A DNA stretch of 42,284 bases from a virus (IMGVR_UViG_3300035199_001173:1-42284); one strand, 5' to 3'; positions 9,332 through 40,209 are shown, counted from the stretch's first letter. Program-made: numbers and translations. The notes: generated from the sequence alone by a model not told the origin.

Positions 9332-9535
9332 ATGCCAAAATTTAAGGTGGTGATAGAGCGTACCGTCACGGTGACGCACCAGATGGATGTAAATGCTGCG
9401 AGTGAAGAAGATGCGGCGACCATTGCCCTGGATGTGAGCGCGACGCTGGACGAAGAACAATTCAGCGGCATTGATGACCGGGTTGAAGAAGATATGGCAA
9501 TGGTGCTGCACCCTGCGCGCGAACGATTGCATTAG
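9332..9535 (+). CDS. Small DpnD/PcfM-like phage protein
   Basis: 67 aa, start ATG 9332 (MPKFKVVIERTVTV) chosen because AAAGGA lies 6-7 nt upstream; the longer in-frame reading has no such site and runs through the 12-bp repeat. The beta-hairpin start followed by VNAASEEDAATIAL resembles the DpnD/PcfM-like family of small phage and mobile-element proteins, whose function is poorly known. No catalytic motif. It ends MAMVLHPARERLH, and a diverged copy of this C-terminal coding segment recurs at 10143-10178 beyond the next gene. It lies about 200 nt behind the polymerase and is probably co-transcribed. Confidence 0.75.
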   Translation: MPKFKVVIERTVTVTHQMDVNAASEEDAATIALDVSATLDEEQFSGIDDRVEEDMAMVLHPARERLH

Positions 9536-9683
9536 GGGGGAGAGCAACCTTTCGACACCTCTTGGAGACCTTGCGGTTTTTAATCTCAAATGACAGGGTG
9601 CTGTCACACCGCAGGGGTGTGTGAGGACCAGGTTTCACGTGAGGTTATGTCTTAAGTGAAATCGACAGGGATGGATTAGGACA

Positions 9684-10124
9684 GTGGCGTTTCAGCTCAA
9701 ACCGTTTTTCTCACGCGGCTTCAGGAACAGGGAGACAAGAGCGTGGATTGGCGTCTCTCTATCTGCGCTTGCCTGTGCGTTGGTTTTTACCGTCGCCGGG
9801 TGGGAGCGATCTTCGTCAGGTGGAACCGATCTGCGGTTTTTCTTTCCGCTTGCAGCGTTGGTTGGCGGCATCATTGCGGGGTCGTTTACAGCGGTCCTCT
9901 TCGGCCGCATGGGTGCTAAGGGTTGGCTCCGGGCAGCACTCGGCGCCTTTCTATCAACATTACTTGGCAGCGCGATTACAGGAACGTTTTTAATACCGGT
10001 AATCGGCACCATTTTTGGTCCCCCCATCCTCTTCGCACTCTTTTTTGTAGAGCCTGCTTTGGGTGCCTTGTGGGTGGCCTGCTTTGTCGTGACACATCTG
10101 GTGGCCCGCAGCGCCGCTGAATAG
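9684..10124 (+). CDS. Four-TM inner-membrane protein (cargo gene)
   Basis: 146 aa from GTG 9684, with TTAGGA about 5 nt upstream. Four hydrophobic segments: about 22-40 (IGVSLSALACALVFTVAGW), 51-70 (FFFPLAALVGGIIAGSFTAVL), 79-99 (AALGAFLSTLLGSAITGTFL) and 101-138 (IGTIFGPPILFALFF / ALGALWVACFVVTHLV). Glycine-rich helices; no charged catalytic motif. I do not recognise the family. It sits between the intact DpnD-like gene and a decayed second copy of that gene's 3' end, so it looks inserted. Confidence 0.75.
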   Translation: MAFQLKPFFSRGFRNRETRAWIGVSLSALACALVFTVAGWERSSSGGTDLRFFFPLAALVGGIIAGSFTAVLFGRMGAKGWLRAALGAFLSTLLGSAITGTFLIPVIGTIFGPPILFALFFVEPALGALWVACFVVTHLVARSAAE

Positions 10125-10135
10125 TGGCAAGCGAT

Positions 10136-10187
10136 GAGCGCGATGGTGCTGCATCCCCTATGCGAACGCATGCATTGCGAGACTTCA
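10136..10187 (+). pseudogene. Decayed second copy of the DpnD-like gene 3' end
   Basis: Reading from 10143, the frame gives MVLHPLCERMHCE, against MVLHPARERLH and stop at 9500-9535. Over 36 aligned bases 26 are identical, starting with an 11-base exact block (ATGGTGCTGCA). The stop codon of the intact gene (TAG) reads TGC here. No gene starts from it. It is best read as the remnant of a 3' end separated from its gene by the 9684-10124 insertion, or as a copy brought in with it. Confidence 0.65.
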
Positions 10188-10480
10188 TCCGCCATCCCGT
10201 GCGCTCATCCAGCGAATGAATACATCGTTTCGTTAGCGGCACAACATCGCGTGTTTGTTTTGTAATCGGAGCTGCGGTTCCTGCAACCTAGGTTGGCTTC
10301 AGCGCATTGCACCGTTGACATTCAAAAGGTAGAATACAATCATTAGTATACATAGTATTTGAGGGTTGATTTCTACAAAGACTAATTGGAAATGGTTAGA
10401 TCAATGAGAAATGTGTCAGCCAAGATTTCAAAATTTGTTCTGGCCCTCAAGCGCGCATCCAAATTGGGTGGGGATATGCT
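10188..10480. other. AT-rich intergenic stretch with possible promoter
   Basis: About 290 bp without a credible gene. A consensus -35 hexamer TTGACA lies at 10315-10320; the region after it is AT-rich (TAGAATACAATCATTAGTATAC), but no -10 hexamer falls at the ideal 17-bp spacing. It probably carries the promoter of the 10481-11855 gene pair. Confidence 0.35.
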
Positions 10481-11233
10481 GTGACGGACGAAAGCACAGA
10501 CGATGAGAATAAGTCCGCATCGGTATTCGATGTGGCGGATCGTTGGATGATCCTAATTTTGGGAATCATCCTGATTTCAGTTGTCGGTTTTTTCTTTGTG
10601 TATATTCAGAAGCTGGGTCTATTGGATTTTCCAATCGCAGGTGGTCATGGAGCTGCTGGCGACAAGGATTACAACTATTTCCGTCAGGCGTTAGAATTTC
10701 GAGAGCGGCGTTTGATCGTGGCTCTTACTTTTCGAACCTTTCTCACGAGCTTCGGTTTTATCGTCGGTCTGGTTTTATCGGTGATTGGTGGATTGTTCGT
10801 TCTTAGGAAAGCCGTTGCTGAATTTAGTGCGACTTTCGATACAGGTGATGGCGCTGCTGCCCGCCCTGTGCCAACCGAGAGTGGGATCGAACGTGCCAAG
10901 GGCTCTGTTGTGACAAATTCACCGGGCATCGTATTCATGATCGGTGGTGTACTTGTGATGATCATCACTCAGTATGTAGCCATTCCCATTGGCGCTCCGG
11001 AAGTGTTTCCCGATCAGGCCTATATAGAATGTAGTACGCAAGCTGAAGAGGAAGGAACGTGCCTTATTGCTGGGCGCTCGGAACAGCAAGACGTAGATAA
11101 CTTATCAGAAGCAGTTAAAGTTGTTCAGCGGATACAGGCAGCCTGTGCCAAAGACCCGGAAAACGAAAATTGCCGTGACCTAGAAGGGCGCCTTGAAGAG
11201 CTTGTGTTCAGATTCAACCAATTGGCGGAGTGA
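10481..11233 (+). CDS. Three-TM membrane protein, first of a two-gene unit
   Basis: 250 aa from GTG 10481. The acidic N-terminus is followed by a first TM segment (about 23-45, WMILILGIILISVVGFFFVYI), a second (about 87-108, FLTSFGFIVGLVLSVIGGLFVL) and a third (about 145-168, SPGIVFMIGGVLVMIITQYV). A ~75-residue C-terminal domain then carries four Cys (ECSTQ, GTC, AAC, ENC), likely periplasmic and disulfide-bonded. The SPGIVF...TM core resembles SPGLLFVILGVGLG in the 21471-21845 protein, which also partners a secreted protein, so the two pairs may be distant versions of one module. The ribosome-binding site is a weak GGGG. Function unknown. Confidence 0.75.
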   Translation: MTDESTDDENKSASVFDVADRWMILILGIILISVVGFFFVYIQKLGLLDFPIAGGHGAAGDKDYNYFRQALEFRERRLIVALTFRTFLTSFGFIVGLVLSVIGGLFVLRKAVAEFSATFDTGDGAAARPVPTESGIERAKGSVVTNSPGIVFMIGGVLVMIITQYVAIPIGAPEVFPDQAYIECSTQAEEEGTCLIAGRSEQQDVDNLSEAVKVVQRIQAACAKDPENENCRDLEGRLEELVFRFNQLAE

Positions 11234-11234
11234 C

Positions 11235-11855
11235 ATGGTATTAGAGAAAAAATTATTAGGGTGGATCATTGCGTTGGCCCTCTTTGCTCCCCTTGTGATA
11301 GCCACCCCTCCGCTCGCAAACGAAAAACCAGAGTGCCAGAAATTTGATGGGCACATCGAGGAGAAGCTCAGCCGAGATGACGGCTATAGGAAGCTAGTGC
11401 TGTTAGCCGATAAACTGAACTACGCAAATGGTTATCGATGCGGGTATCGGCGGGCGAAGGATGATCAGAACTTTGCCACTTTGTTGCAGGCCCAAAACTC
11501 ATCTACCTTAAACGGCTCGCCGAGGAACATAGGCAATAGCACATTTATGGAGGGTCTCTTAGATTTGTTGAAAGACCGTGGGGTTAGGGAAGAGCTGCTA
11601 AATGGTCTCCGTGAGGAGCTACTCAGCGATCGAGTTCAATCGAACTGGATAGCCCATGACCTAACTCTCGATGGATTGGATGGTCAAACGCGATATAATG
11701 TAGAACAGAGATTATTGGACAGTCAGAGTTCTCCTCTAGTCGTTCCAATGCAAGAAGGTGGGCAATTAGTCAGTCCAGATCAGGGACAGTTTGAAATTCC
11801 CGGACCTTTGCGTGGAGGAGGGGCCGGGATGCCAGGCGGTGCTCCTCTTCAGTAG
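11235..11855 (+). CDS. Secreted protein, partner of the upstream membrane protein
   Basis: 206 aa from ATG 11235, one base after the TGA of the preceding gene, with GGAG overlapping that stop; translation is probably coupled. Signal peptide (LLGWIIALALFAPLVIATPPLA) followed by a mature domain beginning EKPECQKFDGHIEE, helical and rich in Arg/Glu, with two Cys near the start (PEC, RCGYRR). The C-terminus is Gly/Pro-rich (PGPLRGGGAGMPGG). I do not recognise the family. Confidence 0.75.
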   Translation: MVLEKKLLGWIIALALFAPLVIATPPLANEKPECQKFDGHIEEKLSRDDGYRKLVLLADKLNYANGYRCGYRRAKDDQNFATLLQAQNSSTLNGSPRNIGNSTFMEGLLDLLKDRGVREELLNGLREELLSDRVQSNWIAHDLTLDGLDGQTRYNVEQRLLDSQSSPLVVPMQEGGQLVSPDQGQFEIPGPLRGGGAGMPGGAPLQ

Positions 11856-11870
11856 ATTTCCTAAAGATGA

Positions 11871-11910
11871 AGAGGCCACAGAACTCATTGATTTGAGTCC
11901 CATGGCCTCT
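11871..11910. terminator. Nested hairpin between convergent genes
   Basis: AGAGGCCA (11871-11878) pairs with TGGCCTCT (11903-11910), and inside it ACTCA pairs with TGAGT. It lies in the 72-bp gap between the convergent 11855 and 11928 stops, so it is placed to end transcription from both sides. No T-tract follows, which lowers confidence. Confidence 0.5.
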
Positions 11911-11927
11911 CAGTTGGTTATGTCCCG

Positions 11928-13052: not shown

Positions 13053-13058
13053 GGTGCC

Positions 13059-14472: not shown

Positions 14473-15140
14473 ACCCCCAAAAGTCCCGAGACCCCAAGAA
14501 GATCGCCAACGCTATTGAGAGATGGCCCGAGGGCACGCCCAAGCTTGTGAGTGTCTTCTCGCCGGTAATGCAGTCTGGCAAAAGTGAAGTCGCCCGCGTG
14601 CTGGTGGAAGAGTTTGGCTTCACCCACCTGTCTTTTGCAACACCGGTCAAGCGCATGGTCGCCGTGGTGCTGGAAGAGCTTGGCTATTCCGACATGCTGG
14701 TTCGCCACCTGCTCTCTGAGGGCAAAGAAGACCGGCTGGTGCTGTTTGATATTTTGAGAGCCGCAGGCGAGAGCGGCGCGGGTGATGTCACTGCGCGCAC
14801 CATGATGCAGTCTCTGGGCACAGACTGGGGACGCGAGCTTGTGCACCCTTCGCTCTGGGTCCGGCCCTTTGACCGCAAGCTGCTGGACGCCATCACGCTC
14901 GGCAATTCTGTCGTGGTGGATGATATGCGCTTCCCCAATGAATATGACTATGTCGCCACCCGCGGCGGCGTGCTGGTGGAGGTCACAAGACCAAACGTCC
15001 ACCCGACCAACCGGCACCGCTCCGAAGGCCAGCTGCGCGGCCGGCCACGGCACCACGCCATCGTCAATGAGGGAAGCCTCAACGACCTGAAAAACAAAGC
15101 CCGCCGCATTATCACCAAAAAGGGAGACGCTCATGTTTGA
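14454..15140 (+). CDS. Phage deoxynucleoside monophosphate kinase
   Basis: 228 aa from TTG 14454, with AAGGTG 6 nt upstream and a 19-nt overlap with the exonuclease gene. It phosphorylates dNMPs from degraded host DNA for phage dNTP synthesis. The P-loop is SPVMQSGKSEVA (about 35-46). Then FTHLSFATPVKRMV, the lid/nucleotide-binding MMQSLGTDWGRELV, VVVDDMRFPNEYDYVATRGG and VEVTRP follow in the order typical of phage dNMP kinases (the DxRFxNE signature). It overlaps the RNR start by 8 nt. A more internal start cannot be excluded, as the first ~30 residues are not conserved-looking. Confidence 0.9.
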   Translation: MDPNSVDPQKSRDPKKIANAIERWPEGTPKLVSVFSPVMQSGKSEVARVLVEEFGFTHLSFATPVKRMVAVVLEELGYSDMLVRHLLSEGKEDRLVLFDILRAAGESGAGDVTARTMMQSLGTDWGRELVHPSLWVRPFDRKLLDAITLGNSVVVDDMRFPNEYDYVATRGGVLVEVTRPNVHPTNRHRSEGQLRGRPRHHAIVNEGSLNDLKNKARRIITKKGDAHV

Positions 15141-17274
15141 GACGCCACCGACCTCTATGACAGCTCCTGGGATTGCCTCTCCACCAACTGCTTCTCCTGC
15201 CGCTTCTCTCGCCAATGCGCGCTCCAATTCGGGCACTCCGTCCTTTCGCGCGCAGCTGGTGACCCGCCGCACCTATAACCGGCCGCTCAACCCAGAAGGC
15301 ACAGAGTTTGAAACCTGGGAACAAACGGTCGATAGGGTGATCCGCCACCAGACCTGGCTTTGGGTGCGCGCACGCGGTGAAACATTGACCGACGCGCAAT
15401 ATGCAGAGCTGAACGAGCTGCGCCAGCACATGTATGACCGCAAGCTCTGCGTCTCTGGCCGCACGCTTTGGCTGGGGGGCACAGACATTGCCCAGCGGCG
15501 CGAGGCAACCCAGTTCAACTGTTCCTTCGCCCGTGTAGAAACAGTGCATGACGTGGTGGACGCGTTCTGGCTGCTGCTGCAGGGATGTGGTGTGGGCTTT
15601 GAGCCAGTGCCGGGCACGCTGAACGGTTTTGCCTGTGCGCCTGAGATTGAAGTCATCCGCTCTACCAGAGGCCCAACGGAGAAAGGCCGGGAGGACAATC
15701 AAGCCATTGATGTGCAGATGAGTGAAGAGGGCTGCGACGGGGGCGAGACCCGCGCGCACATTATTCAAGTGGGTGACAGCGCGTCTGCCTGGGCGAAGGC
15801 CGTGGGCAAGATCATGGCGTTTAAAGGCAATGTGGACCGGCTGGTGTTGGACTTTAGCGAGATCCGCGGCGGGGGCGGGCGCCTGTCTGAATATGGCTGG
15901 ATCAGCTCTGGCGATGAAACGCTGCACAAGGCGCTGCTGGCGATTTGCGAAATTCTAAAACGCCGCCAGGGCGAGCTGCTGACCCGTATGGACATTCTTG
16001 ATGTGATGAACTGGCTGGGCACGGCCCTTTCCAGCCGCCGGTCGGCTGAGATTGCCACTATGCCCTTTACCGATCCGGAAGCCGAAGCCTTTGCCTATGC
16101 CAAGAAGGATCACTTTCCCGACAACCCGCAACGCGCGCAGAGCAACAATTCGCTCGTGTTTTGGCATGCGCCTTCCAAATTGGAATTAAAGGGCATTTTT
16201 CAAATGATGCTGGAGGCGGGCGGTTCTGAACCTGGGTTCCTGAACGGGGTGGAAGCGAAGCGTCGCGCCCCCTGGTTTAAAGGCGTGAACCCGTGCGCGG
16301 AAATTTTGCTCGGCAATAAAAGCTTTTGCAATCTGGTGGAAGTGGACGTGGGCAAGTTTGCTGATGCAAATGAAGAAGCGGATGCGGGCCTTACCCGCGC
16401 CCTGCAACTGGCAGCCCGGGCAAACTATCGCCAGACCTGCGTCAACCTGAAGGACGAAGTGCTGCAGGAAACCTGGCACGAGCTGAACAGCTTTTTGCGC
16501 CTGTGCGGCGTGGGGCTGACGGGCATTGTGAAATATCTCGATGAGCGGGGCCAAGGTAGCAATCTGAGCGAAAGTGGCCAATTGCTGGAGCTGATGCGCT
16601 TTCAGGCACAGACCGCTGCCAATGACATGGCGATGGAGCTGGGTCTGCCTTTCCCCCAAGCGGTGACGACGGTGAAGCCCAGCGGCACCCTGTCTAAAAT
16701 TATGGATACGACCGAAGGGGTGCATCGCCCACTTGGCAAATACATCTTCAACAATATCAACTTCTCCACCCACGACCCGATTGTGGGGCTGTTGCGCGCG
16801 GCGAACTATCGCATCATCAAAAATCCCTATGATGCCTCCGGCGTGATCATCACCATTCCCCATGCGTACGAAGATGTGCGCTTTAGCAAGGTGGCACTGG
16901 ATGATGGGCGCATTGTGGAAGTAAACCAGGAAAGCGCTTTGGACCAGCTGAAGCGCTACCAATTATTGATGACCCATTATGTGGATCACAATTGTTCGGT
17001 GACCGTGAGCTATAGCCCGGAAGAAGTGCCTGAGATTGTGGACTGGCTGCACGCCAACTGGGGAGATTTTGTCGGCGTGTCCTGGCTCTTGCGCAATGAC
17101 CCAACAAAGACGGCAGCAGATTTGGGCTACCCCTACCTGCCGCAAGAAGTGGTGAGCGAAGAAGCTTTTGCTGATTACGTCAAGACGCTTCTGCCTGTGG
17201 ACATTGATCAGGCGGGCAGCCTGGACGAACTGGAAGATGAGGAATGCGCTGGCGGCGTGTGCCCGGTCCGGTAG
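15133..17274 (+). CDS. nrdJ: Adenosylcobalamin-dependent class II ribonucleotide reductase
   Basis: 713 aa, monomeric ribonucleoside-triphosphate reductase type as in Lactobacillus leichmannii. It makes deoxynucleotides using a thiyl radical generated by coenzyme B12. All key residues are visible: C130 in FNCSF and C399 in SFCNL (the redox pair), C388 in NPCAEI (radical Cys) with E390, and C705/C710 in the C-terminal ECAGGVC (re-reducing pair, Cx4C). GCGVGFEPVPG and STRGPTEKGRED are family signatures. AGGGAGA precedes the ATG and the gene overlaps the dNMP kinase by 8 nt. A B12-dependent RNR is the hallmark of cobavirus-type roseophages. The last 58 bases recur, decayed, at 18056-18113. Confidence 0.96.
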   Translation: MFETPPTSMTAPGIASPPTASPAASLANARSNSGTPSFRAQLVTRRTYNRPLNPEGTEFETWEQTVDRVIRHQTWLWVRARGETLTDAQYAELNELRQHMYDRKLCVSGRTLWLGGTDIAQRREATQFNCSFARVETVHDVVDAFWLLLQGCGVGFEPVPGTLNGFACAPEIEVIRSTRGPTEKGREDNQAIDVQMSEEGCDGGETRAHIIQVGDSASAWAKAVGKIMAFKGNVDRLVLDFSEIRGGGGRLSEYGWISSGDETLHKALLAICEILKRRQGELLTRMDILDVMNWLGTALSSRRSAEIATMPFTDPEAEAFAYAKKDHFPDNPQRAQSNNSLVFWHAPSKLELKGIFQMMLEAGGSEPGFLNGVEAKRRAPWFKGVNPCAEILLGNKSFCNLVEVDVGKFADANEEADAGLTRALQLAARANYRQTCVNLKDEVLQETWHELNSFLRLCGVGLTGIVKYLDERGQGSNLSESGQLLELMRFQAQTAANDMAMELGLPFPQAVTTVKPSGTLSKIMDTTEGVHRPLGKYIFNNINFSTHDPIVGLLRAANYRIIKNPYDASGVIITIPHAYEDVRFSKVALDDGRIVEVNQESALDQLKRYQLLMTHYVDHNCSVTVSYSPEEVPEIVDWLHANWGDFVGVSWLLRNDPTKTAADLGYPYLPQEVVSEEAFADYVKTLLPVDIDQAGSLDELEDEECAGGVCPVR

Positions 17275-17292
17275 GGCGCTCCAAACCAAAAC

Positions 17293-17330
17293 TGTCACCC
17301 CGGACGCCTTTGGCGAGCCGGGGTGCTATT
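17293..17330. repeat. REP-like palindrome, partial unit
   Basis: TGTCACCCCGG-ACGCCTTTGGCGAG-CCGGGGTG directly after the RNR stop. It is an imperfect stem-loop whose loop itself holds GCCTTTGGC. It matches the left arm of the larger units at 17696 and 17850. On position it may end RNR transcription. Confidence 0.7.
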
Positions 17331-17354
17331 GAGTTGGTCCCCGGGCTTTTGTTG

Positions 17355-17615
17355 TCAGGTGTGACTGACGACATACCCGACAAGGTTTCCATTCAGCGTG
17401 TAACTCTGTCTAGCGGCCCAGCCATGTTTGTTGAGAGCACCATGTACCTGATCACGGTTGAGGTGCTTATCGCGGGACTTTTTGTTGCAGGTTATGATCA
17501 TCACTTCCTGCTTGCCTTCAGAGTTTTTGGCTAGCCAGTTCCGAAGCTCTTGCTCAGAAGAGACTTTTATCCGCTTCAAATTTGGTCTGGTCACAGCGCG
17601 CGATCCTTTCAGCAT
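17355..17615 (-). CDS. Small conserved hypothetical protein (KxxSRDKH type)
   Basis: 86 aa, basic, predicted alpha/beta, with motifs SSEQELRNWLAKNSEGKQEV, MIITCNKKSRDKHL and AARQSYTLNGNLVGYVV. From memory this resembles a short protein family common in alphaproteobacteria with no known function. The start ATG 17615 (MLKGSRAV) has AAAGAG upstream; an internal start is possible. It lies between the intact RNR gene and the decayed copy of the RNR tail, flanked by REP units, so it looks like inserted host DNA. Confidence 0.6.
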   Translation of the reverse strand: MLKGSRAVTRPNLKRIKVSSEQELRNWLAKNSEGKQEVMIITCNKKSRDKHLNRDQVHGALNKHGWAARQSYTLNGNLVGYVVSHT

Positions 17616-17695
17616 TTAGCTCTTTATACGACAACACGGCCATTGGAACAAAAATGTCCGAGGGTCCATCGGTCAGCATGCCTGCCAATAGAAAC

Positions 17696-17960
17696 TGTCA
17701 CCCCGGACGCCTTTGGCGAGCAGGGGTCCATTCTACCTCAGCGATTGACGAAAGAGCCTATGGATTCCGCATCAAGTGCGGGATGACATTTGGGTGTGGG
17801 CTTTTGAGTGCGGGTAATCTTTCACGCTGGCGTCCCTCCAAATAGAAGTTGTCACCCCGGACGCCTTTGGCGAGCCGGGGGCCATTCTGCCCATGCGACT
17901 GACGAAAGAGCCTGTGGATCCCGCATCAAGTGCGGGATGACAACAGAGTGTGGAGTTGGC
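17696..17960. repeat. Two REP-like units in tandem
   Basis: Units begin at 17696 and 17850. Each has TGTCACCCCGGACGCC...GGGG(T/G)CCATTCT, a spacer containing GACGAAAGAGCCT, then a second palindrome TCCCGCATCAAGTGCGGGATGACA (its first arm is mutated in unit 1). A GT-rich spacer with TAATCTTTCACGCTGGCGTC follows. The same composite unit recurs at 23226-23630. These are intergenic palindromic repeats, not CRISPR. Confidence 0.8.
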
Positions 17961-18055
17961 GCTGGTTCGTCACCCAAAGAAAAAGGCCACCGCCAAGGTT
18001 GGCTCTTTAAAGTCAGATTCCGGATGATTTCACGGCGGAAGAGAATGGTGGCCGC

Positions 18056-18113
18056 CAGCCTGGACGAACTGGAAGATGAGGAATGAGCCGGTGGCGTCGA
18101 CCCAGTGTGGTGA
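18056..18113 (+). pseudogene. Decayed second copy of the RNR C-terminal tail
   Basis: Thirty bases (18056-18085) are identical to 17217-17246 and encode SLDELEDEE. The next 28 bases align without gaps at 17 of 28 positions: ECAGGVCPVR-stop becomes E-stop-AGGVDPVW-stop. Both redox cysteines are lost (TGC to TGA, TGC to GAC) while the frame and terminal stop position are kept. Upstream of 18056 no further RNR similarity is seen. It marks the far edge of an ~0.8-kb segment inserted behind RNR. Confidence 0.8.
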
Positions 18114-18291
18114 GGCAATCGCTCCCCCCGATAGCTTATTGAATTGCGAGTGTGACCTAGACGCCTTGGCTGATGGAGACTTTGGCGCTTCTGTGCTGGT
18201 CAATCAAATGGCAACAGACCGCAATGAGTACGGCGATCTCCGAGACTGCTATCAGCGGCTTGTTGAGTGGACGTTGAGGGACGACACCTAG
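18076..18291 (+). CDS. Possible small protein after the RNR-tail remnant
   Basis: A 71-aa frame (MRNEPVAS...YQRLVEWTLRDDT), acidic, with no signal peptide or motif I recognise. The ATG falls inside the duplicated RNR tail in another frame and its GGAAGATGAG context is only a fair ribosome-binding site. The C-terminal half (MATDRNEYGDLRDCYQRLVEW) looks more protein-like than the first half. It may be a remnant of the phage gene that once followed RNR. Weakly supported. Confidence 0.3.
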   Translation: MRNEPVASTQCGEAIAPPDSLLNCECDLDALADGDFGASVLVNQMATDRNEYGDLRDCYQRLVEWTLRDDT

Positions 18292-23225: not shown

Positions 23226-23630
23226 GCTGGGGTCCATTCTGCTTATGCGTTTGACGAAAGAGCCTGTGGATCCCGCATCAAGTGCGGGATGACAACTGAG
23301 TGTGGGTTTTTGGGTGTGGGTAATCTTTCACGCTGGCGCCTCCCAAAAACAAAAACCTGTCACCCCGGGCTCGACCCGGGGTCCACTCTACAGATGAATT
23401 CGACGAGATGGCCTATGGATCCCGCATCAAGTGCGGGATGACAACAGAGGGTGGATTTTTGGGTGTGGGTAATCTTTCACGCTGGCGTCTCCCAAAAACA
23501 AAAACCTGTCACCCCGGGCTCGACCCGGGGTCCATTCTGCTTATGCGTTTGACGAAGGAGCCTATGGATCCCGCATCAAGCATGTCCTCGGGCTTGACCC
23601 GTGGATGCGGGATGACAGCAGAGCGCGGGG
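23226..23630. repeat. Array of three REP-like units
   Basis: Units run from about 23226 (left arm missing), 23358 and 23507, with a period of ~150 bp. Each has TGTCACCCCGGGCTCGACC...GGGGTCCA, a spacer with GACGA(A/G), TCCCGCATCAAGTGCGGGATGACA and the TAATCTTTCACGCTGGCG spacer. In the third unit the second palindrome is interrupted by an inserted GTCCTCGGGCTTGACCCG, giving a larger nested dyad. They resemble the 17696-17960 pair but carry GGCTCGACC in place of ACGCCTTTGGCGAG. No gene lies in this stretch. Confidence 0.8.
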
Positions 23631-23643
23631 CAGGTGCATGCCA

Positions 23644-24391: not shown

Positions 24392-25102
24392 ATGTTGTCA
24401 CGACTGACGATGGAGTTTGTTGCCACTGCCGAACGCGTTGCCACTGAAACCGAGTTGGTAAAAGCCTTCGAAGGATTGCTGCAAGAGATTGGCATTTCCC
24501 AATATTTCCTGGGCGAAGTGAGCGGTGTCCTGCCCGACGAAGTCTTACGATATGGCAATTGGAATGATGAGTGGGTCAAACGCTACATAGAGCAGGACTA
24601 CCACTACGTAGATGCGATCGTCGCGAAGGCGAAATCAACGCCAAAAGCGTTTGGGTGGGAGACGGTGAGGGAGGAAGGTTTCCTCAGTGGCCCCTCAAAA
24701 AAAGTCATGGATGAAGCCGGGGAGTTTGGCATTCAGGCCGGATATTCCGTGCCCGTGTTTCAGGCAAATGGCTATCTGGCGGTGGCGTCGTTTGGCTCTG
24801 GTCGCCAGGCGCCAGACCAGCGGACGCGGGCAGCGCTGCAGCTGGCAACAGTCTATTTTCATGCGCGGCTTCTGGCGTTCAGAGACACCTATCTTCCCTG
24901 CCGCGAAATGCTGACGCCGCGCCAACGCGAGTGCTTGCACTGGGTTGGAGCCGGAAAGTCTGATTGGGAGATAGGCGAGATCCTAAATATTGCTGAAGCG
25001 ACGGTGCACTCTCATGTCGAGAATGCCAAGCGTCTCTACAAAGTTCCCACGCGAATCCAAGCGTTTGTAGAGGCCTGCCGCAACAGGGAACTCCGGCTCT
25101 GA
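24392..25102 (+). CDS. luxR: LuxR-type acyl-homoserine-lactone receptor/regulator
   Basis: 236 aa. The N-terminal autoinducer-binding domain carries W61, Y65, D74 and W89 at the spacing of TraR W57/Y61/D70/W85; the Pro after the Asp is Ala. G-rich SVPVFQANGYLAVASFGS follows. The C-terminal GerE-type helix-turn-helix is LTPRQRECLHWVGAGKSDWEIGEIL and ATVHSHVENAKRLYKV (about 172-220), with the conserved Glu, Gly and the recognition helix. It should bind an AHL and act at the palindrome 25109-25126 between it and luxI. It has a G-rich ribosome-binding region (AAGGGGGCGGG). The gene is intact. Confidence 0.92.
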   Translation: MLSRLTMEFVATAERVATETELVKAFEGLLQEIGISQYFLGEVSGVLPDEVLRYGNWNDEWVKRYIEQDYHYVDAIVAKAKSTPKAFGWETVREEGFLSGPSKKVMDEAGEFGIQAGYSVPVFQANGYLAVASFGSGRQAPDQRTRAALQLATVYFHARLLAFRDTYLPCREMLTPRQRECLHWVGAGKSDWEIGEILNIAEATVHSHVENAKRLYKVPTRIQAFVEACRNRELRL

Positions 25103-25108
25103 GCGTCA

Positions 25109-25126
25109 ATCATCTGATCAGATGAT
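25109..25126. promoter_or_regulatory. Putative lux box: perfect 18-bp palindrome upstream of luxI
   Basis: ATCATCTGATCAGATGAT is a perfect inverted repeat starting 7 bp after the luxR stop and 60 bp before the luxI start. LuxR family regulators bind 18-20 bp palindromes at this position, so it is the natural operator for AHL-dependent luxI activation. Eleven bases of its right half (ATCAGATGATC) recur on the minus strand near 27771-27783. Confidence 0.75.
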
Positions 25127-25186
25127 CGACCCCACGGGGCCAAACTGAGACCTTTTTGTCAGGATCAAATCAGACAAGGAACAGTC

Positions 25187-25864
25187 ATGCTGTGCATCGT
25201 CACCCAACAAAATGCCTTCCTGTATAAAGACCAACTGGAGCAAATGTATCGGCTCAGGCATCGGGTGCTGGTCGATATTGCAGGCTGGGAAGAAATACGT
25301 CAGCCAGACGGTCGCGAGATCGATCAGTTTGACAATGAACTCACGACCTATTTCCTGGTGCTGGGCGAGGACGGCAATGTTGAAGGGTCGCTTCGCATGC
25401 AGCCCACACTGGCGCCAACCCTGACCTCAGATGTATTTGCAAACATTTGCGACATGGAAGGGGTGCCGAGGTCTGAACGTCTCTACGATTGCTCGCGGGT
25501 CATCGCCGCGCCCGAAGTGTCTCAGATTGGCGGACAACCTTCATGGGTCACCTCAGAACTTCATTCTGGAATGTTTGAGTTTGGTCTGGCGCTGGGCCTG
25601 GAAGGGCTCACCTGTGTTCTGGAAGTGAAATGGTTGCACTATATGAAGCGATGGAACTGGGATGTGCGCCCCTTGGGCTTGCCAGATAGCGTCAGCGAAG
25701 GCGGCAGCGTTGCAGCCTGCATTCACACAACTGAGACAATGCTCGAAATGCTTCGTGAGACCCGAGGTCTGAAAGGTCCAGTGATCACACCAGGTGATCT
25801 GGGATTGATCAGGGCCAATCATGAGCTCATTCATGCCACACGTTTGAACAAGCTTGCTGCCTAG
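25187..25864 (+). CDS. luxI: LuxI-type acyl-homoserine-lactone synthase
   Basis: 225 aa. It makes an AHL signal from S-adenosylmethionine and an acyl donor. The canonical residues fall almost exactly in place: R24, W34, D46 and D49 (canonical D45/D48), R70 in GSLRMQPT, F84, D101 (usually Glu) and R104 in SRVIAAP. Position 28 is Leu where Phe is usual, a conservative change also found in divergent synthases. The C-terminal WLHYMKRWNWDVRPLG part shapes acyl-chain choice, so chain length cannot be predicted. AAGGAA precedes the ATG. A candidate lux box lies 60 bp upstream, suggesting positive autoregulation. It is followed by phyH after 33 nt. Confidence 0.93.
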   Translation: MLCIVTQQNAFLYKDQLEQMYRLRHRVLVDIAGWEEIRQPDGREIDQFDNELTTYFLVLGEDGNVEGSLRMQPTLAPTLTSDVFANICDMEGVPRSERLYDCSRVIAAPEVSQIGGQPSWVTSELHSGMFEFGLALGLEGLTCVLEVKWLHYMKRWNWDVRPLGLPDSVSEGGSVAACIHTTETMLEMLRETRGLKGPVITPGDLGLIRANHELIHATRLNKLAA

Positions 25865-25897
25865 GCGCCGATAACACAGATAGAAGAGGGATGAACC

Positions 25898-26764
25898 ATG
25901 TCTATTCCGACACTGAGCGCGGCTGCCGAAACGCCACTGATACTTGAGAAATTAAACCAAGAAGGGTGTGTTGTTCTGACGTCTCTTCTAAGCGAGGCGG
26001 ATGTTCAATCCTATCGCGACGACCTTGTGCCGATTTTGCAGACGTCCTTTTTTGGGGATGGCGGGTTTGTGGGACGGCAAACAAAACGACTGGGCGGCTT
26101 GTTCAAGAAGTCGGAGATGGCCCAAAAGGCAGCGCTTGATGCCACCATTCTTGAGATCGTAGAAGGTGTTCTCGGCCCGAATTGCGAACGCTTTCAGATA
26201 AACCTTACGCAGGCAACAGAGATACATCCCGGCGAGCCGGATCAATATCTTCATGCAGATGAGGGGCTCTTTGATTTCTGTAAAATAAAGGGGGAGCGCA
26301 TGTTGAATGTCATGTGGGCTCTCACACCTTTTGACAAACAAACCGGTGGCACCCGGGTGGTGCCAGGAAGCCATCTCTGGCCGGCAGATCGTGTGCCGCT
26401 CGATTCCGAAATAGAGACTGCCGTCATGGCACCGGGGTCCGTCTTGATCTGGCTTGGGTCATTGCTTCATGCAGGTGGCGCAAACCATTCGGACGCGCCA
26501 AGGCTTGGAACCATCATCAGCTACAATCTGGGATGGTTGCGCCAGGCCGAAAATCAATCTCTGACCTATCCACCAGAAGTGGCGCGGGCGTTTCCCGACG
26601 CTCTTCAGGACTTGATTGGCTATTCAGTGCATCGACCAAATGTAGGGCTCGTGGAAAACAATGATCCCAAACGTTTGTTCGGCGAGGACGGGGCCGGGCT
26701 GATCCAGCCACGTGATTTCCTGACACCGGAGGGAGAGGGAATTCTCGCAGATCTCGAAGCATAA
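25898..26764 (+). CDS. Phytanoyl-CoA dioxygenase family protein (PhyH)
   Basis: 288 aa Fe(II)/2-oxoglutarate oxygenase. The metal triad is H119-x-D121 in QYLHADEGLF and H191 in SLLHAGGANHS; R202 in PRLGTIISYN should bind 2-oxoglutarate. TGGTRVVPGSH is a family signature. GAAGAGGG lies upstream, 33 nt after luxI, so it is in the luxI operon and probably AHL-controlled. luxR-luxI-phyH synteny is, as I recall, known from sphingomonads and relatives, where the role of PhyH is unsettled. It could modify the signal's acyl chain or make a quorum-controlled metabolite. Confidence 0.9.
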   Translation: MSIPTLSAAAETPLILEKLNQEGCVVLTSLLSEADVQSYRDDLVPILQTSFFGDGGFVGRQTKRLGGLFKKSEMAQKAALDATILEIVEGVLGPNCERFQINLTQATEIHPGEPDQYLHADEGLFDFCKIKGERMLNVMWALTPFDKQTGGTRVVPGSHLWPADRVPLDSEIETAVMAPGSVLIWLGSLLHAGGANHSDAPRLGTIISYNLGWLRQAENQSLTYPPEVARAFPDALQDLIGYSVHRPNVGLVENNDPKRLFGEDGAGLIQPRDFLTPEGEGILADLEA

Positions 26765-34263: not shown

Positions 34264-34277
34264 AGAGGAGATGCTTC

Positions 34278-35903
34278 ATGCCTATCCTCCCCGTTCGGAA
34301 TCTGTCCGAACACGGAATGCTGAAAGACATAAACCCTTATGACTTGCCTTTAAGTGCATTCAGCGGCGGCAATAATGTCCGCTTTGATCAGGGCAAAGTG
34401 ATGCGCGCTCCGGTGTTTCGCGCCATCGTGGACGGTACCGCACAGGCCGATCCACAGTTTGTTTATGGAGTGCGTCCAGCCCAAGGCTACGACTTTGTGC
34501 TGATCGGCGGGGCCGATGGCACCATCTCGCGCTATTCATCCGGTGCTGAGACCGATGTCACCCGCGCGAGCCACACGCCCAATGTGGTGAACACGCCGTG
34601 GACTGGCGCTTTTCACGGTGAGGGAACTTACCTCAACCGGGTGGACATGGTGCCGCAATATCTGGGGCCGACCGACACGCAGTTTGCCGACCTGCCAAAC
34701 TGGACTGCCACCTGGCGCACAAAAGTACTGCGCGTTTATGGTGACTTTCTGGTGGCCATTAATGTGCAAAAGGGCGCGGTGGCCTTTCCCAATATGGTGA
34801 AATGGTCTGACCTGACGCTGGCGGGCGTGCCGCCAGGCTCCTGGGATGAAACGGACCTGGCAACCTCTGCTGGCGAGAATATCTTGAACTCGCTGGACAG
34901 CCCGCTGCTTGATGGGGTGACGCTGCGCGACAGCCTGATCCTCTATGCAGAAACCCAGGTCTGGCGCATGACTTTTGTGCCCAATTCGCCTTTCATTTTC
35001 GACTTCCGCCTTCTGTTTGATGATGGCGGGGCGTTGAACACGAATTGTGTGGTGGAAGTGGATGGCCGACACTATGTGTTTGGCAATAATGACATCTATG
35101 TTCATGACGGCACAACGAAACGCTCCATCGCGGATGGGCGCGTCAGGGATTTTGTCTATCGCAACATCAACGCCTCAAGAGGCGAACAATGTTTTGCAGC
35201 TCATAATCCAGGGCTAAATGAGATCACCTTTGCCTTTGTCTCAGCTGATGAGGATACCTATTGGAAAGCGCCGACCCGGTGCAACCGTGGCGTTGTGTAC
35301 AATTACATTAATGACACGTGGAGCATTGTCGATCTTCCCAATGTTGGCGCCATGTCGGCCGCCAATGTGGAAAACGTTACCACCTATGCGCAGGTGCCGG
35401 TGACGACGACCCATGAGTTGATCGGTGGGACATATGCTGACTTGTCGGATGGTTTTAAGACCCACGTCATTTCCGTCAGCTCCCCCTTGGCAAGCGAAGG
35501 TTTGAGCCAAGGAAAGCTCCACGGGATCGATCTCGCAGACAAAGGCAACCTGACGTTTCCCTTTGATGTAGAAACGGCAAGTCCTGCCTGGGCAGAGCGC
35601 ATTGGAGTGGATCTGGATGTGAGCACACGGGCGGAACTGCGCCAATATAAAGTGTGCAGCAGGCTCTATCCGCAGGTGACCGTATTCCGCAGCATTCCAA
35701 CCCAGATTGAAGTGGGTGGGGCACTGACGGCAACGGGGCCCATTACCTGGTTGCCCAAACAAGGCTTCGACCCGGCGTCTGACTATAAGGTCGACGTGCG
35801 CGCAGGCGGGCGCTATCTGGCCTTCCGCTTCTCCGTCGATGCGATCTCCGATTTTGAATTGTCAGGCTATGACCTGGAACTCAAATCGGGCGGGAGTAGA
35901 TAG
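34278..35903 (+). CDS. Podovirus tail/structural protein (gp10-like)
   Basis: 541 aa. The opening NPYDLPLSAFSGGNNVRFDQGKVMRAPVFR is a recurrent start among podovirus head-tail structural proteins. The body is beta-rich with repeated strand pairs (FVLIGGADGTISRYSSG, VLRVYGDFLVAINVQKG, HYVFGNNDIYVHDGTTKRSI, GVVYNYINDTWSIVDLP), consistent with a beta-propeller-like tail or packaged-DNA stabilisation component. GAGGAG precedes the ATG, 14 nt after the fiber gene. The stop is directly followed by the next ATG. Length is normal for the family and there is no disruption. Confidence 0.82.
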   Translation: MPILPVRNLSEHGMLKDINPYDLPLSAFSGGNNVRFDQGKVMRAPVFRAIVDGTAQADPQFVYGVRPAQGYDFVLIGGADGTISRYSSGAETDVTRASHTPNVVNTPWTGAFHGEGTYLNRVDMVPQYLGPTDTQFADLPNWTATWRTKVLRVYGDFLVAINVQKGAVAFPNMVKWSDLTLAGVPPGSWDETDLATSAGENILNSLDSPLLDGVTLRDSLILYAETQVWRMTFVPNSPFIFDFRLLFDDGGALNTNCVVEVDGRHYVFGNNDIYVHDGTTKRSIADGRVRDFVYRNINASRGEQCFAAHNPGLNEITFAFVSADEDTYWKAPTRCNRGVVYNYINDTWSIVDLPNVGAMSAANVENVTTYAQVPVTTTHELIGGTYADLSDGFKTHVISVSSPLASEGLSQGKLHGIDLADKGNLTFPFDVETASPAWAERIGVDLDVSTRAELRQYKVCSRLYPQVTVFRSIPTQIEVGGALTATGPITWLPKQGFDPASDYKVDVRAGGRYLAFRFSVDAISDFELSGYDLELKSGGSR

Positions 35904-36179
35904 ATGGCCCTCAATACACGCACCGACATGGTGTTGAACCCCTATCGGATGACATCACGCCCGACACTCGACAATTCGCAGGCCCAGTGGGTCGATGAAG
36001 AATTGAAACGGATTGAACTGTTTCTGGAGCAGGTCTATGAGGCCATGCCCCAAGTGGCTGATGCCGCTCCTGATAACCCCAAGCGCGGCATGATCCGCTA
36101 CGCGACGTCTCCGTGGAACCCGCTGGGTTCCGGAGACGCTTGGGTGTTTTTCAATGGAACGGTCTGGGTCGCGCAGTAG
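35904..36179 (+). CDS. Small phage structural protein
   Basis: 91 aa starting at the base after the previous stop, with GGGAG upstream inside that gene. KRIELFLEQVYEAMPQV is helical, then PKRGMIRYATSPWNPLGSGDAWVFFNGTVWVAQ forms a small beta tip of a kind seen in short phage tail-associated proteins. It probably assembles with the 34278 protein, to which it is coupled. No enzyme motif. Confidence 0.8.
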   Translation: MALNTRTDMVLNPYRMTSRPTLDNSQAQWVDEELKRIELFLEQVYEAMPQVADAAPDNPKRGMIRYATSPWNPLGSGDAWVFFNGTVWVAQ

Positions 36180-36195
36180 GGGATGGAGCGGCTGC

Positions 36196-36534: not shown

Positions 36535-37642
36535 CGTTCTTAAGACGTTTTTTGGTGGGAGTGAAAATTCTTCGCAATCCACTCAGAGCTCTGGCCCATG
36601 GGGCCCACAGCAGGAATTCCTCACCGAGGGGTTTGGCGAAGCACGCAACATTTACAACGACCAAAAAGGCACGCCTTTCTATGAGGGAGATCTTTATGCC
36701 GGGTTGAATGATCGTCAAAATCAGGGGCTTGATGCGCTGTCTGGTTGGGGGCAGGGCACAGGTCAGAACCTGGCGGGTGCGACATCCAATGCAGCCTTGT
36801 CGGGCTTGTCCAACACTCAAGGTCTCTATGATTTTCTCAATAATACGTTGAGCGGCAATCAGTCCATTGGCAATAGCCAGACCAACCAGAACCTGAGCAA
36901 TCAGGGCAGTGATCTTCTCTCTCAAGGCTCGGCGGGCTTGTCTCGTGCGACAGAAAATGGCACGGCGTCTAACCTTGCTGCTGCTCAGTCTTATGTGAAC
37001 AGCGATTTGCTCAATTCACAAATTGACGCGGTGGGCGATGATATTTCTCGTAACTTGAATGAGAACACGCTGACGTCCCTTAACCGGGGTGCCTCGATTG
37101 GTGGCAATCTCAACTCGTCACGAGCCGGGCTTGAAACCTACGAAGCTTTTGACGATGCACAAGACGAGCTGGCACGCGCCTCCGTCGATCTGCGTTCCAA
37201 CGCCTACAATAATGGGTTGGCACTGGCCGAGCAGGGCAGAGCCACTGACATTAACGCAGGTCTCAACACGCTGTCGACAGGTGCTGGTCTGATTGGGGAT
37301 GCGAACGCCAACAAGCAGTTTGATGTGAACTCCACCTTGAATGCGAGTGGCCAGTTGAACGGCGCTCTGGGTCTTGCCACCAATCAGGCAACAGCAGGCG
37401 CGGCCCTTGGCACAGATGCCGCCAATAACATTTTCAATGCCGGGTCCGTGCAACAGGCCGACGCCCAAGGACGCCTGGATGAAGCCTTCCAGCAATGGTC
37501 TGGCAATGACACACGCGCCTCTGATCTGTTGAACCGCTACTGGAATATTGTCGGTCGTCCGATCACGGAATCTCAAGGTCAGAGCACGTCTCACGGCGAA
37601 AGCAATGACGCGGTATTCAAGAAATTGGGTAGCCCCTTTTAA
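36527..37642 (+). CDS. Phage virion protein, Gln/Asn/Ser-rich helical
   Basis: 371 aa; AAGGAAA precedes the ATG, which overlaps the previous stop by 8 nt. The N-terminus GPWGPQQEFLTEGFGEARNIY and FYEGDLYAGLNDRQNQGLDAL are typical of podovirus internal or tail proteins. The body is low-complexity helical with many Asn, Gln, Ser and Gly, such as SNTQGLYDFLNNTLSGNQS, and no Cys. The C-terminus has YWNIVGRPITESQGQ. Likely an internal virion or DNA-ejection protein. I cannot name an exact homologue. Confidence 0.75.
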   Translation: MGDVLKTFFGGSENSSQSTQSSGPWGPQQEFLTEGFGEARNIYNDQKGTPFYEGDLYAGLNDRQNQGLDALSGWGQGTGQNLAGATSNAALSGLSNTQGLYDFLNNTLSGNQSIGNSQTNQNLSNQGSDLLSQGSAGLSRATENGTASNLAAAQSYVNSDLLNSQIDAVGDDISRNLNENTLTSLNRGASIGGNLNSSRAGLETYEAFDDAQDELARASVDLRSNAYNNGLALAEQGRATDINAGLNTLSTGAGLIGDANANKQFDVNSTLNASGQLNGALGLATNQATAGAALGTDAANNIFNAGSVQQADAQGRLDEAFQQWSGNDTRASDLLNRYWNIVGRPITESQGQSTSHGESNDAVFKKLGSPF

Positions 37643-37654
37643 AGGAAGTCAATC

Positions 37655-39232
37655 ATGGTTGTTCCACTAATTGCAGCGGCTCCAGTAGTTGCTGCCGCCG
37701 CTGCCCCAGCCGTTGCCGGTGTTGCCGCAGCGGGTGCCGCTGCAGCAGGTGCTGCTGCGGCGGGCGCCGCTGCAGGTGCGATAGGTGCCGGGGTCGCAGG
37801 CGCCGCAGGCGCAGCTGGTGCTCTGGGTGCTGGTGCTCTAGGTGCTGGTGCCGCGGGTGCCGCCGGCGCTTTAGGGGCAGGTGCTGCCGGTGCTGCCGGT
37901 GCTGCCGGTGCTGCCGGTGCTGCCGGTGCTGTAGGTGCCTTAGGTCCAATTGCGGCAGGGGCTATTCCCGCTGCTGCTCCTATTGCTGCTGCTCCTATTG
38001 CCGCTGCTGCTCCTATTGCCGCCGCTGCTCCCGTTACAGCTGGCGCTCCCCTTGCTGCAGCTGCTCCGGCTGCCGCAGCTGGCGCTCCTGCCACAGCTGC
38101 CGCCGCGCTTCCGGCGACGACGGCTCTTCCCACAACGGCAACGCTGCCGGGTGCCGCCGCATCATCGCCTCTTGGCGCGGCAACAGCAGCTCCCCAAGGC
38201 GCTGTTGCCGGTGCTCCGCAGGCGGCAAGCCTTCCGCAATTGCCGTCCGCTGGTGGTGCTGGCGTCACGCCGAGTGCAAGCCCTGTTGAAGGAGCGTTGA
38301 ATTCTGCTGGTGAAGGATTGCAAAGCTTCCTTGATGCGCCCATAGAGAGCCTGGAAAATATGGGGCAGCAGTTTATGCAGGATCTGAAAAGTGATCCGAT
38401 GAAAACGCTCTCTCAATTTGGGTCAGGTGGTGACGACAGTAAAGCGTCGCGGCCAGGAGGTAGCGGAGTGATAAGCGCCTTGGCGCCCATTCCGCCCGCG
38501 AACCCGGTATCATCGCCGACACCTGTGAGCAGCGGACTTCAGTTGCCAACAGCATCAAGTGCACCCCCCATGCGCATGAACCGGCGGGATGTGACGCAAC
38601 TCTCAACAACGTCAACCTTTGAGCCCATTCCGCAAACGAACTCATTTTCGCGTCGACCAGGTGCTGCACAGGCGAACGTGTCTCCGGGGCAGAGCTTCCG
38701 GCCAACGCCGGTACAGCAACCAGGCGTCAGGCAGCCGGGCACTGGTGGCGACTTCTCTTTCGGTCGTTTTGTGGATGGTTTGTCAACAGGTCCTGAGCAG
38801 GGTCTTCTGGGACGTCTTGGCAATGGTCTTGAATTAGGGACCAATCAGAGCACCGACGTCTCACAGTTTCTGAGAGGGTTTGGTCAGAATCGGGACGATA
38901 CAATTCTTGGGCGGATCAACACCGGACGTGATTTTGCCGAGAATGACATTTCGTTGTTTGGCAATGCCGGAGGCGAAAAATCTCCAGACCAGGCACAGTC
39001 TATTTTTCAGGGCCAAGAGCAGGAAGAAGAGACACGGCGAGTGCGCCCGCCAGCACAGCAGGCCCCGGCTTTACAGGGCGGCGTACCCGCAGGCGACAAT
39101 GAGCAAGATTACCTTGCTTGGAAAGCCGCACAGCAACGCGGCCCAGGTGGTAGCGCGTCAGGCCCACGACCTGGTTCCTTCGGCCGTCCGCGCTTCAGCC
39201 CAGGTGTCAGCAGTGCGGGAAGCCGGTATTAG
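37655..39232 (+). CDS. Ala/Gly-rich phage virion protein (probable ejection protein)
   Basis: 525 aa with AAAGGAAG before the ATG. Residues 1 to ~205 are almost only Ala, Gly, Pro, Val, Ile and Leu, in AAGAAG and PIAAAAP patterns able to form tightly packed helices or a membrane-spanning bundle. Part of it is encoded by five perfect 9-bp repeats at 37880-37924. The rest is polar and disordered-looking (PTPVSSGLQLPTASSAPP, FSRRPGAAQANVSPGQSF). The C-terminus is FGRPRFSPGVSSAGSRY. A role in forming a channel during DNA ejection is inference. The 3' end recurs in decayed form near 40130-40192. Confidence 0.75.
   Translation: MVVPLIAAAPVVAAAAAPAVAGVAAAGAAAAGAAAAGAAAGAIGAGVAGAAGAAGALGAGALGAGAAGAAGALGAGAAGAAGAAGAAGAAGAVGALGPIAAGAIPAAAPIAAAPIAAAAPIAAAAPVTAGAPLAAAAPAAAAGAPATAAAALPATTALPTTATLPGAAASSPLGAATAAPQGAVAGAPQAASLPQLPSAGGAGVTPSASPVEGALNSAGEGLQSFLDAPIESLENMGQQFMQDLKSDPMKTLSQFGSGGDDSKASRPGGSGVISALAPIPPANPVSSPTPVSSGLQLPTASSAPPMRMNRRDVTQLSTTSTFEPIPQTNSFSRRPGAAQANVSPGQSFRPTPVQQPGVRQPGTGGDFSFGRFVDGLSTGPEQGLLGRLGNGLELGTNQSTDVSQFLRGFGQNRDDTILGRINTGRDFAENDISLFGNAGGEKSPDQAQSIFQGQEQEEETRRVRPPAQQAPALQGGVPAGDNEQDYLAWKAAQQRGPGGSASGPRPGSFGRPRFSPGVSSAGSRY
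37880..37924 (+). repeat. 9-bp tandem repeat, five perfect copies
   Basis: GGTGCTGCC repeated five times encodes Ala-Gly-Ala triplets within the Ala-rich virion protein, with looser copies on both sides. It is in frame, so length changes are tolerated. Confidence 0.85.
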
Positions 39233-39448
39233 GGGAGGACGGAGCGTCCTCTCCCATATGAGGTGGTGAGGGTCGCCTCTGGCCACCGGTAGAATAGCTG
39301 GGCACGTATTTGTGTTCGCTGTTTGAGCCGGTGCTTATGTCGCTATGGCCATCCTTCGGGGTGGCCTTTTCGTGCCACCGATCAGTGGCGACACACTGCG
39401 GAGCATGACCGGGATGCAAGCACCCCGGCATACTCATCTGAAACAGCT

Positions 39449-39919
39449 TTAGTTTCGCGGAGGATGGTAGGCGCATACGATCTGGTTGCCCATTGGAACG
39501 TAATGCCAAATCTTCGTTGGCCCCGCCGGGACCTTCCCTTCGATGATCCCGTTCAACGGCCCTGTCATTCCCACTCTGCTACCACAGAAATCGTTGAGGG
39601 CTGTCTCGCTGCAAGCCCAATGTGGTTCGCGAACTTGGTCGCTGCCCCATCGTCCCCTCTGGCAATGGCGTTCGTTTCGCGGCTCCTCGACAAATGGCTT
39701 TCCGCCACCCTGCGCTCGAAAAGATAGGATCGATGTCGCCCAGTCGCGCATGTTGCTCTGCTTGCCTAAGGTGTCTTCTAAATCTGCTTTGGTAACGTGC
39801 TGATGGCCAGACACGGTTGGTAGTGGCACCGGCTGCGGATGTGGATTTGGATGAGCCGACGCAGCAGTTGCTCCCACGGCAGCACACAGAGATATCATTG
39901 CCAGAATTGAATTTCTCAT
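39449..39919 (-). CDS. Secreted protein inserted among virion genes
   Basis: 156 aa with a strong ribosome-binding site (GGGAGGGAC) and signal peptide (MRNSILAMISLCAAVGATAASA). The mature start is His/Pro-rich (HPNPHPQPVPLP), then a small domain with Arg-rich and Cys motifs: ERHCQRGRWGSDQVREPHWACSE, NDFCGSRVGM, NQIVCAY. Four Cys suggest two disulfides. Its strand is opposite to all flanking phage genes. It lies between the intact Ala-rich virion gene and a decayed copy of that gene's 3' end. Family not recognised. Confidence 0.75.
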   Translation of the reverse strand: MRNSILAMISLCAAVGATAASAHPNPHPQPVPLPTVSGHQHVTKADLEDTLGKQSNMRDWATSILSFRAQGGGKPFVEEPRNERHCQRGRWGSDQVREPHWACSETALNDFCGSRVGMTGPLNGIIEGKVPAGPTKIWHYVPMGNQIVCAYHPPRN

Positions 39920-40129
39920 TTGTCCCTCCCATTAGAAATTTCCGAACTCACGATACATTCAATGAATAAAACCATAGTTTTGGTTTGGGCGCAAAACCCT
40001 GCCAAAATCAAGGGAACCGGGCTTAAGTCCAGGGCGGAAACGCTGGCTTGGGGCGACGTTCTGGCTAGGTCTGGTCAGGGTGGTGCTGATGCCGCCTAGG
40101 CAGTGATTGTCTCGATCCTGCTTTTTGCG

Positions 40130-40209
40130 TCTTGATCATTCGGGCGTCCGCGCTTCAGCCCTGGTGTCGCCAGCGCAGGAAGACGGTATTGGGGAAAGGG
40201 CGTGGCGCT
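40130..40209 (+). pseudogene. Decayed second copy of the Ala-rich virion gene 3' end
   Basis: In frame it reads FGRPRFSPGVASAGRRYWGK, against FGRPRFSPGVSSAGSRY-stop at 39178-39232. About 84% of ~50 bases match, including 17 identical bases CGTCCGCGCTTCAGCCC. The stop TAG is TGG here. Both copies are followed by GGGGA and a GC-rich inverted repeat (39235-39256; GGAAAGGG/CCCTTTCC near 40193-40221), so the duplication runs past the stop. Beyond it the virion operon resumes at 40282. Confidence 0.75.

Follow-up and report, generated by a model that had tools for sequence, protein, structure and literature searches.

IMGVR_UViG_3300035199_001173 is a virus record of IMG/VR whose 42,284 bases, counted from the first base and referred to here as the window, carry three phage genes with duplicated 3′ ends. 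Behind a DpnD-like gene, a class II ribonucleotide reductase (RNR) gene, and an Ala-rich gene of the virion region, the last 12 to 20 codons of the gene recur 0.64 to 0.96 kb downstream in the same orientation, and the two copies enclose a cassette with an open reading frame (ORF). A preliminary description had reported a second copy of each of these gene ends, and alignment confirmed all three pairs. The null for each pair was a set of dinucleotide shuffles of the 2.5 kb downstream of the gene end (the source of the z values below), and 1,111 gene ends from related phage loci made up a control set. The parts of the three sites are as follows.

9332..9535, plus strand: DpnD-like small phage gene, intact (ORF; PHROG matches weak, best E value 0.007)
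9497..9533, plus strand: intact DpnD-like 3′ end, proposed to be imported (37 nt, 76% identical to 10140-10176)
9536..10139, no strand: cassette 1 (ORF 9684-10124, plus strand)
10140..10176, plus strand: dead, putatively displaced copy of the DpnD-like 3′ end (stop codon lost; z = 6.7; 6/1,111 controls score as high)
15133..17274, plus strand: class II (B12-dependent) RNR, intact (PF02867, PF17975, phrog_367; best relative 64% identical)
17213..17277, plus strand: intact RNR 3′ end, proposed to be imported, coding for CAGGVCPVR (65 nt, 80% identical to 18052-18116)
17278..18051, no strand: cassette 2 (ORF 17355-17615, minus strand, 86 amino acids)
17279-17330, 17676-17799, and 17830-17953: chromosomal-type repeat copies in cassette 2
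18052..18116, plus strand: dead, putatively displaced copy of the RNR 3′ end (z = 18)
37655..39232, plus strand: Ala-rich virion-region gene, intact (ORF; no family; downstream of a DNA-ejection-like gene)
39179..39255, plus strand: intact Ala-rich 3′ end and the following hairpin, proposed to be imported
39256..40138, no strand: cassette 3 (ORF 39449-39919, minus strand, 156 amino acids)
40139..40216, plus strand: dead, putatively displaced copy of the Ala-rich 3′ end with its own hairpin (stop changed to TGG; z = 19)

The RNR and Ala-rich pairs are beyond chance. The RNR pair has an alignment score of 82 (shuffle maximum 33; z = 18.0) and the Ala-rich pair one of 87 (shuffle maximum 36; z = 19.1), and 0/1,111 control gene ends scored 60 or higher. 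The DpnD pair scored 38 against a shuffle maximum of 28 (z = 6.7), a score of at least 38 being reached by 6/1,111 controls. The earlier argument that three sites speak against chance therefore holds for RNR and the Ala-rich gene and is marginal for DpnD; the concern that shuffled sequence might score as well as the pairs can be set aside, since no shuffle reached the score of any of them. None of the other plus-strand gene ends in the window has such a downstream copy, and the strong matches on the minus strand are tandem paralogues at 1 to 7.1 kb. Just the last 12 to 20 codons are duplicated, with no further piece of the target gene inside any of the three segments; comparison of the segments with the DNA beyond the displaced copy gave no convincing homology, and no displaced 5′ gene ends occur in the window. 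Behind copies 1 and 2, further cargo stands between the copy and the next phage gene. The layout is real.

The cassettes differ in content. The ORF of cassette 1 encodes 146 amino acids with hydrophobic stretches and stops 16 nt upstream of the displaced copy; its product has no Pfam or PHROG match. The cassette 3 protein has a signal-peptide-like start and no family match. One non-phage gene per segment had been described, a statement that needs qualification at RNR, where the "gene" is the 86-amino-acid minus-strand ORF beside the three repeat copies. At the Ala-rich gene the repeated ends (39179-39234 and 40139-40194) are 86% identical over 56 nt, and weaker similarity continues to 39255 and 40216 through a hairpin that is present in both copies with different stem sequences.

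Divergence between the two copies

Pooled over the three pairs, mismatches at codon positions 1, 2, and 3 amount to 6/48, 4/49, and 17/49, so that third positions differ far more often than the others (17/49 versus 10/97; Fisher p = 6e-4). This excess points to two lineages of each gene that diverged while still coding, and by this codon pattern both ends of each pair appear to have evolved as coding sequence. The same bias rules out duplication followed by decay, and a second copy of the whole gene is ruled out by the lack of any further remnant in the segments. The downstream copies are non-functional: in that of RNR the two Cys codons of the C-terminal CAGGVC motif are gone (TGC to TGA and TGC to GAC), and those of DpnD and the Ala-rich gene have no stop. 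On the strength of the third-position bias and the dead downstream copies, we infer that in the window the cargo came with a new end and that the native end was displaced downstream. This is the direction of events given in the preliminary description, and the uninserted alleles of T7-like relatives presented below agree with it.

At its left edge the RNR pair is identical over 30 nt, and 11 mismatches follow in the next 31 nt. The stretch that is identical between the copies (p = 0.001) varies among RNR relatives, and the CxGGxCPxR tail that is conserved in those relatives has diverged between the copies; a crossover within the identical block would explain this pattern.

Displaced gene ends in related contigs

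A search for empty sites, suggested in the preliminary description, yielded none for the window itself and succeeded among T7-like relatives, where the affected gene encodes the primase-helicase. Contigs L077 and L092 have identical primase-helicase genes, each followed by a gene for a 170-amino-acid nuclease and, behind it, the displaced end GPACSLKYDMNTGRMIEVTIEPL with its stop; in PHROG the nuclease matches endonuclease, endonuclease VII, and HNH families. The uninserted allele of L087 matches this displaced end at 63/72 nt and the intact end at 44/72, and that of L076 matches at 61/72 and 42/72, respectively; the 18-nt flank of L087 also follows the displaced end in L077 and L092. Since uninserted alleles match the displaced end and its flank, these comparisons support the view that in T7-like relatives insertion behind the gene brings a new end and displaces the native one. 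Two other relatives, L080 and L098, are slightly closer to the intact end (56 and 54) than to the displaced end (53 and 49), and for this reason they may resemble the donor lineage. In L088 the same gene is followed by Endonuclease_7 cargo and a displaced end matching relatives. L081 carries an HNH-AP2 gene in the corresponding position behind the primase-helicase, and no displaced end was detected there.

Some ORFs of these relatives end in borrowed codons. A 76-amino-acid cargo ORF of L088 (6378-6608) ends in the displaced primase end (KYDMNTGRMIEVTMEEL, then stop), and in L077 a 94-amino-acid ORF likewise takes its C terminus from the displaced primase end. The different endonuclease genes at L077 1909-2421 and L088 5894-6385 have a common C terminus, LEQTNHE-stop, as if gene ends had been exchanged among the nucleases too. 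In L086, a small ORF (6367-6645) ends in a copy of the primase zinc-ribbon N terminus about 0.6 kb upstream of a second copy, which makes a displaced 5′ end possible.

Flanks of this kind recur around other cargo, where the preliminary description had proposed to look for them, both in L077/L092 (nuclease) and in contig G001 (HNH gene). G001 (L100; IMGVR_UViG_3300035199_001025) was found through a rare repeat of the window. Its portal, terminase, scaffold, and capsid genes are of SU10 type and are interrupted by bacterial cargo, which includes a GGDEF protein and tandem paralogues; it and the window may be complementary parts of one kind of phage or provirus. An intact gene upstream of terminase is followed by a DUF7662-HNH gene and then by the last 50 nt of the intact gene again (88% identical, z = 21). 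Phage SU10 has a small gene directly upstream of terminase without such an insert.

A tandem duplication of a tail-fibre gene at G001 (L103) 4023-6040 included 24 nt from the end of the gene before it (MAEGQEY-stop), and the duplicated fibre gene now terminates in its neighbour's last codons.

Origin of the displaced ends

We hypothesize that DNA from a related phage lineage, carrying a functional but diverged version of the last 40 to 60 nt of the gene followed by cargo, would have joined the resident gene about 40 to 70 nt before the stop, leaving the gene intact with a new end. At the Ala-rich gene the incoming end would also have included the hairpin. The native end would have been stranded downstream of the cargo and would then have decayed. 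The process may have started with a double-strand break made by a free-standing homing-like endonuclease and repaired from a cargo-bearing relative; in the window, such a nuclease would have been lost, replaced by other cargo, or supplied in trans. Homology begins 39 nt before the stop in DpnD, 54 nt in the Ala-rich gene, 62 nt in RNR, 53 nt in G001, and about 72 nt in L077, and it is the small spread of these remnant lengths, with the nucleases of the relatives, that suggests a break near the gene end. Recombination over short homology without any nuclease would give the same scar. The exchange of gene ends is in itself quite likely; its initiation by a nuclease, as extended to the window, is a tentative proposal, and the account as a whole, which reads every site as a scar left when an insertion exchanged the end of a phage gene, seems to us rather probable. 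A broader form of it, in which phages acquire genes regardless of cargo by using the last 40 to 70 nt of an essential gene as a landing site that incoming DNA replaces, with endonuclease genes as one of several passengers and displaced ends as a general, searchable scar, is possible but doubtful.

Several observations weigh against this interpretation. The DpnD pair is marginal, with a chance of about 0.5% per gene, and is not convincing alone; its support comes mainly from the match falling exactly on the gene end. No close relative of the window, and hence no uninserted allele, was found (best RNR 64% identical, polymerase 49%). A six-frame search of the window with profiles for integrase, resolvase, HNH, GIY-YIG, and LAGLIDADG_3 gave no match. 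A significant core block occurs in RNR only, the identical cores of the other two pairs being 17 and 11 nt long (DpnD, p = 0.21; Ala-rich, p = 0.35). In L088 the displaced end scores 43, which just equals the maximum of the protein-level null. The G001 pair shows no third-position mismatch bias, and homologues of the G001 HNH lie in restriction or moron loci; we rejected it as a homing enzyme on that ground, so that it may simply be cargo, and the protein itself is more like the HNH proteins of restriction systems or morons than like homing enzymes.

The main alternative is homology-facilitated illegitimate recombination, in which a fragment of a cargo-bearing relative would join through homology on the left and microhomology on the right, as ordinary moron acquisition with no special enzyme. 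Such recombination has been described in bacteria (PMC3240628). It would suit cassettes that encode no enzyme and target sites that share no motif, and the coding-type divergence fits a diverged donor. However, if right junctions fell at random, the remnants left in genes of 0.2 to 2.1 kb should differ widely in length, whereas all those observed start 39 to 72 nt before the stop, and the cargo in relatives is a nuclease. We consider this explanation possible, if on the unlikely side.

Site-specific elements are the next candidate. Integrative elements at gene 3′ ends, among them e14 and phage 21 in icd, provide the gene with a different 3′ coding sequence, and the native end is displaced. Elements of this type with cores in the last codons, served by an integrase in trans and since reduced, would produce exactly the geometry seen here; the 30 identical nt at the left of the RNR pair would be their core, and one T7-like relative does encode an integrase. 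However, e14-type elements carry an integrase and use one fixed site, whereas here three or four unrelated sites have neither a common core nor a recombinase. No integrase gene was found in the cassettes and no integrase or resolvase match anywhere in the window; the four cores share no k-mer beyond chance, the target sites have no motif in common, and the core is significant in one pair of three. An e14-type origin is therefore improbable. A single site-specific recombinase or element behind all sites, which the preliminary description had envisaged as one possibility, in the manner of tRNA-targeting elements, is likewise unlikely because there is no shared core and no integrase or nuclease was recognised in the cassettes; its remark that the segments encode no recombinase is borne out.

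Tandem duplication of the gene end together with the next gene (X-Y-Xend-Y′), with the cargo later decayed or replaced, has a precedent behind G001 5387-6040, where the duplicated unit includes the 24 nt of the preceding gene's end. It is largely refuted and very improbable for the window: no displaced end has copies of the cargo on both sides, the cassettes are not homologous to the DNA that follows the displaced copy, and a non-coding copy should not gain coding-type divergence. That the copies are remnants of a second related provirus, its genes deleted except for their last codons, is barely credible; a phage backbone interrupted by bacterial cargo and chromosomal repeats would suit it, as would divergence as two lineages, but it needs three independent deletions ending 39 to 62 nt before the stop directly behind the matching intact gene, and no other remnant was found. 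We also considered a de Bruijn assembly error, which would require exact overlaps at three unrelated junctions, and reverse-transcribed gene ends, which leave the position right behind the parent gene unaccounted for.

The preliminary description knew of no system with this signature, but one exists. Beaudet et al. (2013) described four fungal mitochondrial genes (atp6, atp9, cox2, and nad3, in Allomyces and Glomus) in which an inserted mobile ORF is followed by a duplicate of the gene's C-terminal part (PMC3630166). There, as proposed here, a foreign C terminus completes the gene, the native C terminus is displaced downstream (by about 1 kb in atp6), and several genes are affected in one genome. 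The window shares the second gene end downstream of the insert, and it is in the relatives alone that the displaced end is shown to be the native one. The organisms and the cargo differ, and fungal mobile ORFs encode endonucleases, whereas no homing endonuclease was recognised in the three cassettes of the window; nuclease genes do occur in L077 and L088. Free-standing phage homing endonucleases and homing endonuclease gene (HEG) islands, as portrayed in PMC2988022 and PMC10448857, are nuclease genes beside essential genes that spread with their flanks by break repair. The T7-like relatives L077, L088, and L081 resemble them in carrying nuclease genes behind primase-helicase, and the window differs in that no nuclease was found. 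For HEG islands, cargo travelling with nuclease genes is proposed in PMC10448857; a term search of these two papers returned no description of a displaced gene end.

Phage morons are also single bacterial-type genes inserted between phage genes, but a displaced copy of the end of the gene before them is no part of their usual definition. The junction of e14 at icd is similar as well. The signature is thus already known in fungal mitochondria; what is new is that it is seen in phages, that it occurs repeatedly in a single phage-derived genome, and that the cargo encodes no recognisable enzyme. A limited search of the open-access literature found no description of displaced gene ends in phages. 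It has long been asked how phages take up individual foreign genes among essential ones and leave the latter unbroken. From the scar of a displaced gene end the insertion point can be read, and comparison with uninserted relatives, if there are any, also tells which end is native. Such ends can be searched for in any phage collection, and the primase-helicase case of L077/L092 versus L087 opens the model to a direct laboratory test.

Gene content of the window

The window combines a T7-like backbone (family A polymerase, 5′-3′ exonuclease, dNMP kinase, and class II RNR), whose proteins are 47 to 64% identical to those of marine roseobacter and other T7-like phages, with a virion block of LUZ24/SU10 type at 33.4 to 39.2 kb. 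Two genes represent these parts.

7242..9134, plus strand: family A DNA polymerase of the T7-like backbone (PF00476; 47-49% identical to T7-like phages)
34278..35903, plus strand: virion structural gene of LUZ24/SU10 type (phrog_3287; matches to LUZ24-like and other podoviruses)

Bacterial-type genes (including LuxR, LuxI, and PhyH) and chromosomal-type repeats sit between backbone and virion block. In a window-wide comparison with the phage loci, matches were confined to backbone genes. No primase, RNA polymerase, portal, capsid, or terminase gene was recognised in the window, and tRNA and Rfam searches of it gave no match. No near relative appeared in scans of IMG/VR and GTDB, the GTDB matches to RNR being about 30% identical and mostly from Firmicutes; the tail, Ala-rich, and DNA-ejection genes had no usable relatives with uninserted sites.

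At 1-7136, the minus strand carries a tandem array of diverged, secreted-looking proteins with a repeated unit of about 345 nt; one of them was searched and had no family match. At 24392-26764, genes for a LuxR-type regulator, a LuxI-type acyl-homoserine-lactone synthase, and a PhyH dioxygenase adjoin on this phage-derived contig, and a complete quorum-sensing pair is unusual on a virus record. The chromosomal-type repeats lie at 17279-17953 and 23226-23637, and their translation includes CHPGLDPGS. The 26-nt core of the repeat occurs in only two other IMG/VR contigs, G001 among them, and a pattern shifted along the repeat recovered only one. The genes of L099, one of these two contigs, resemble a gene transfer agent.

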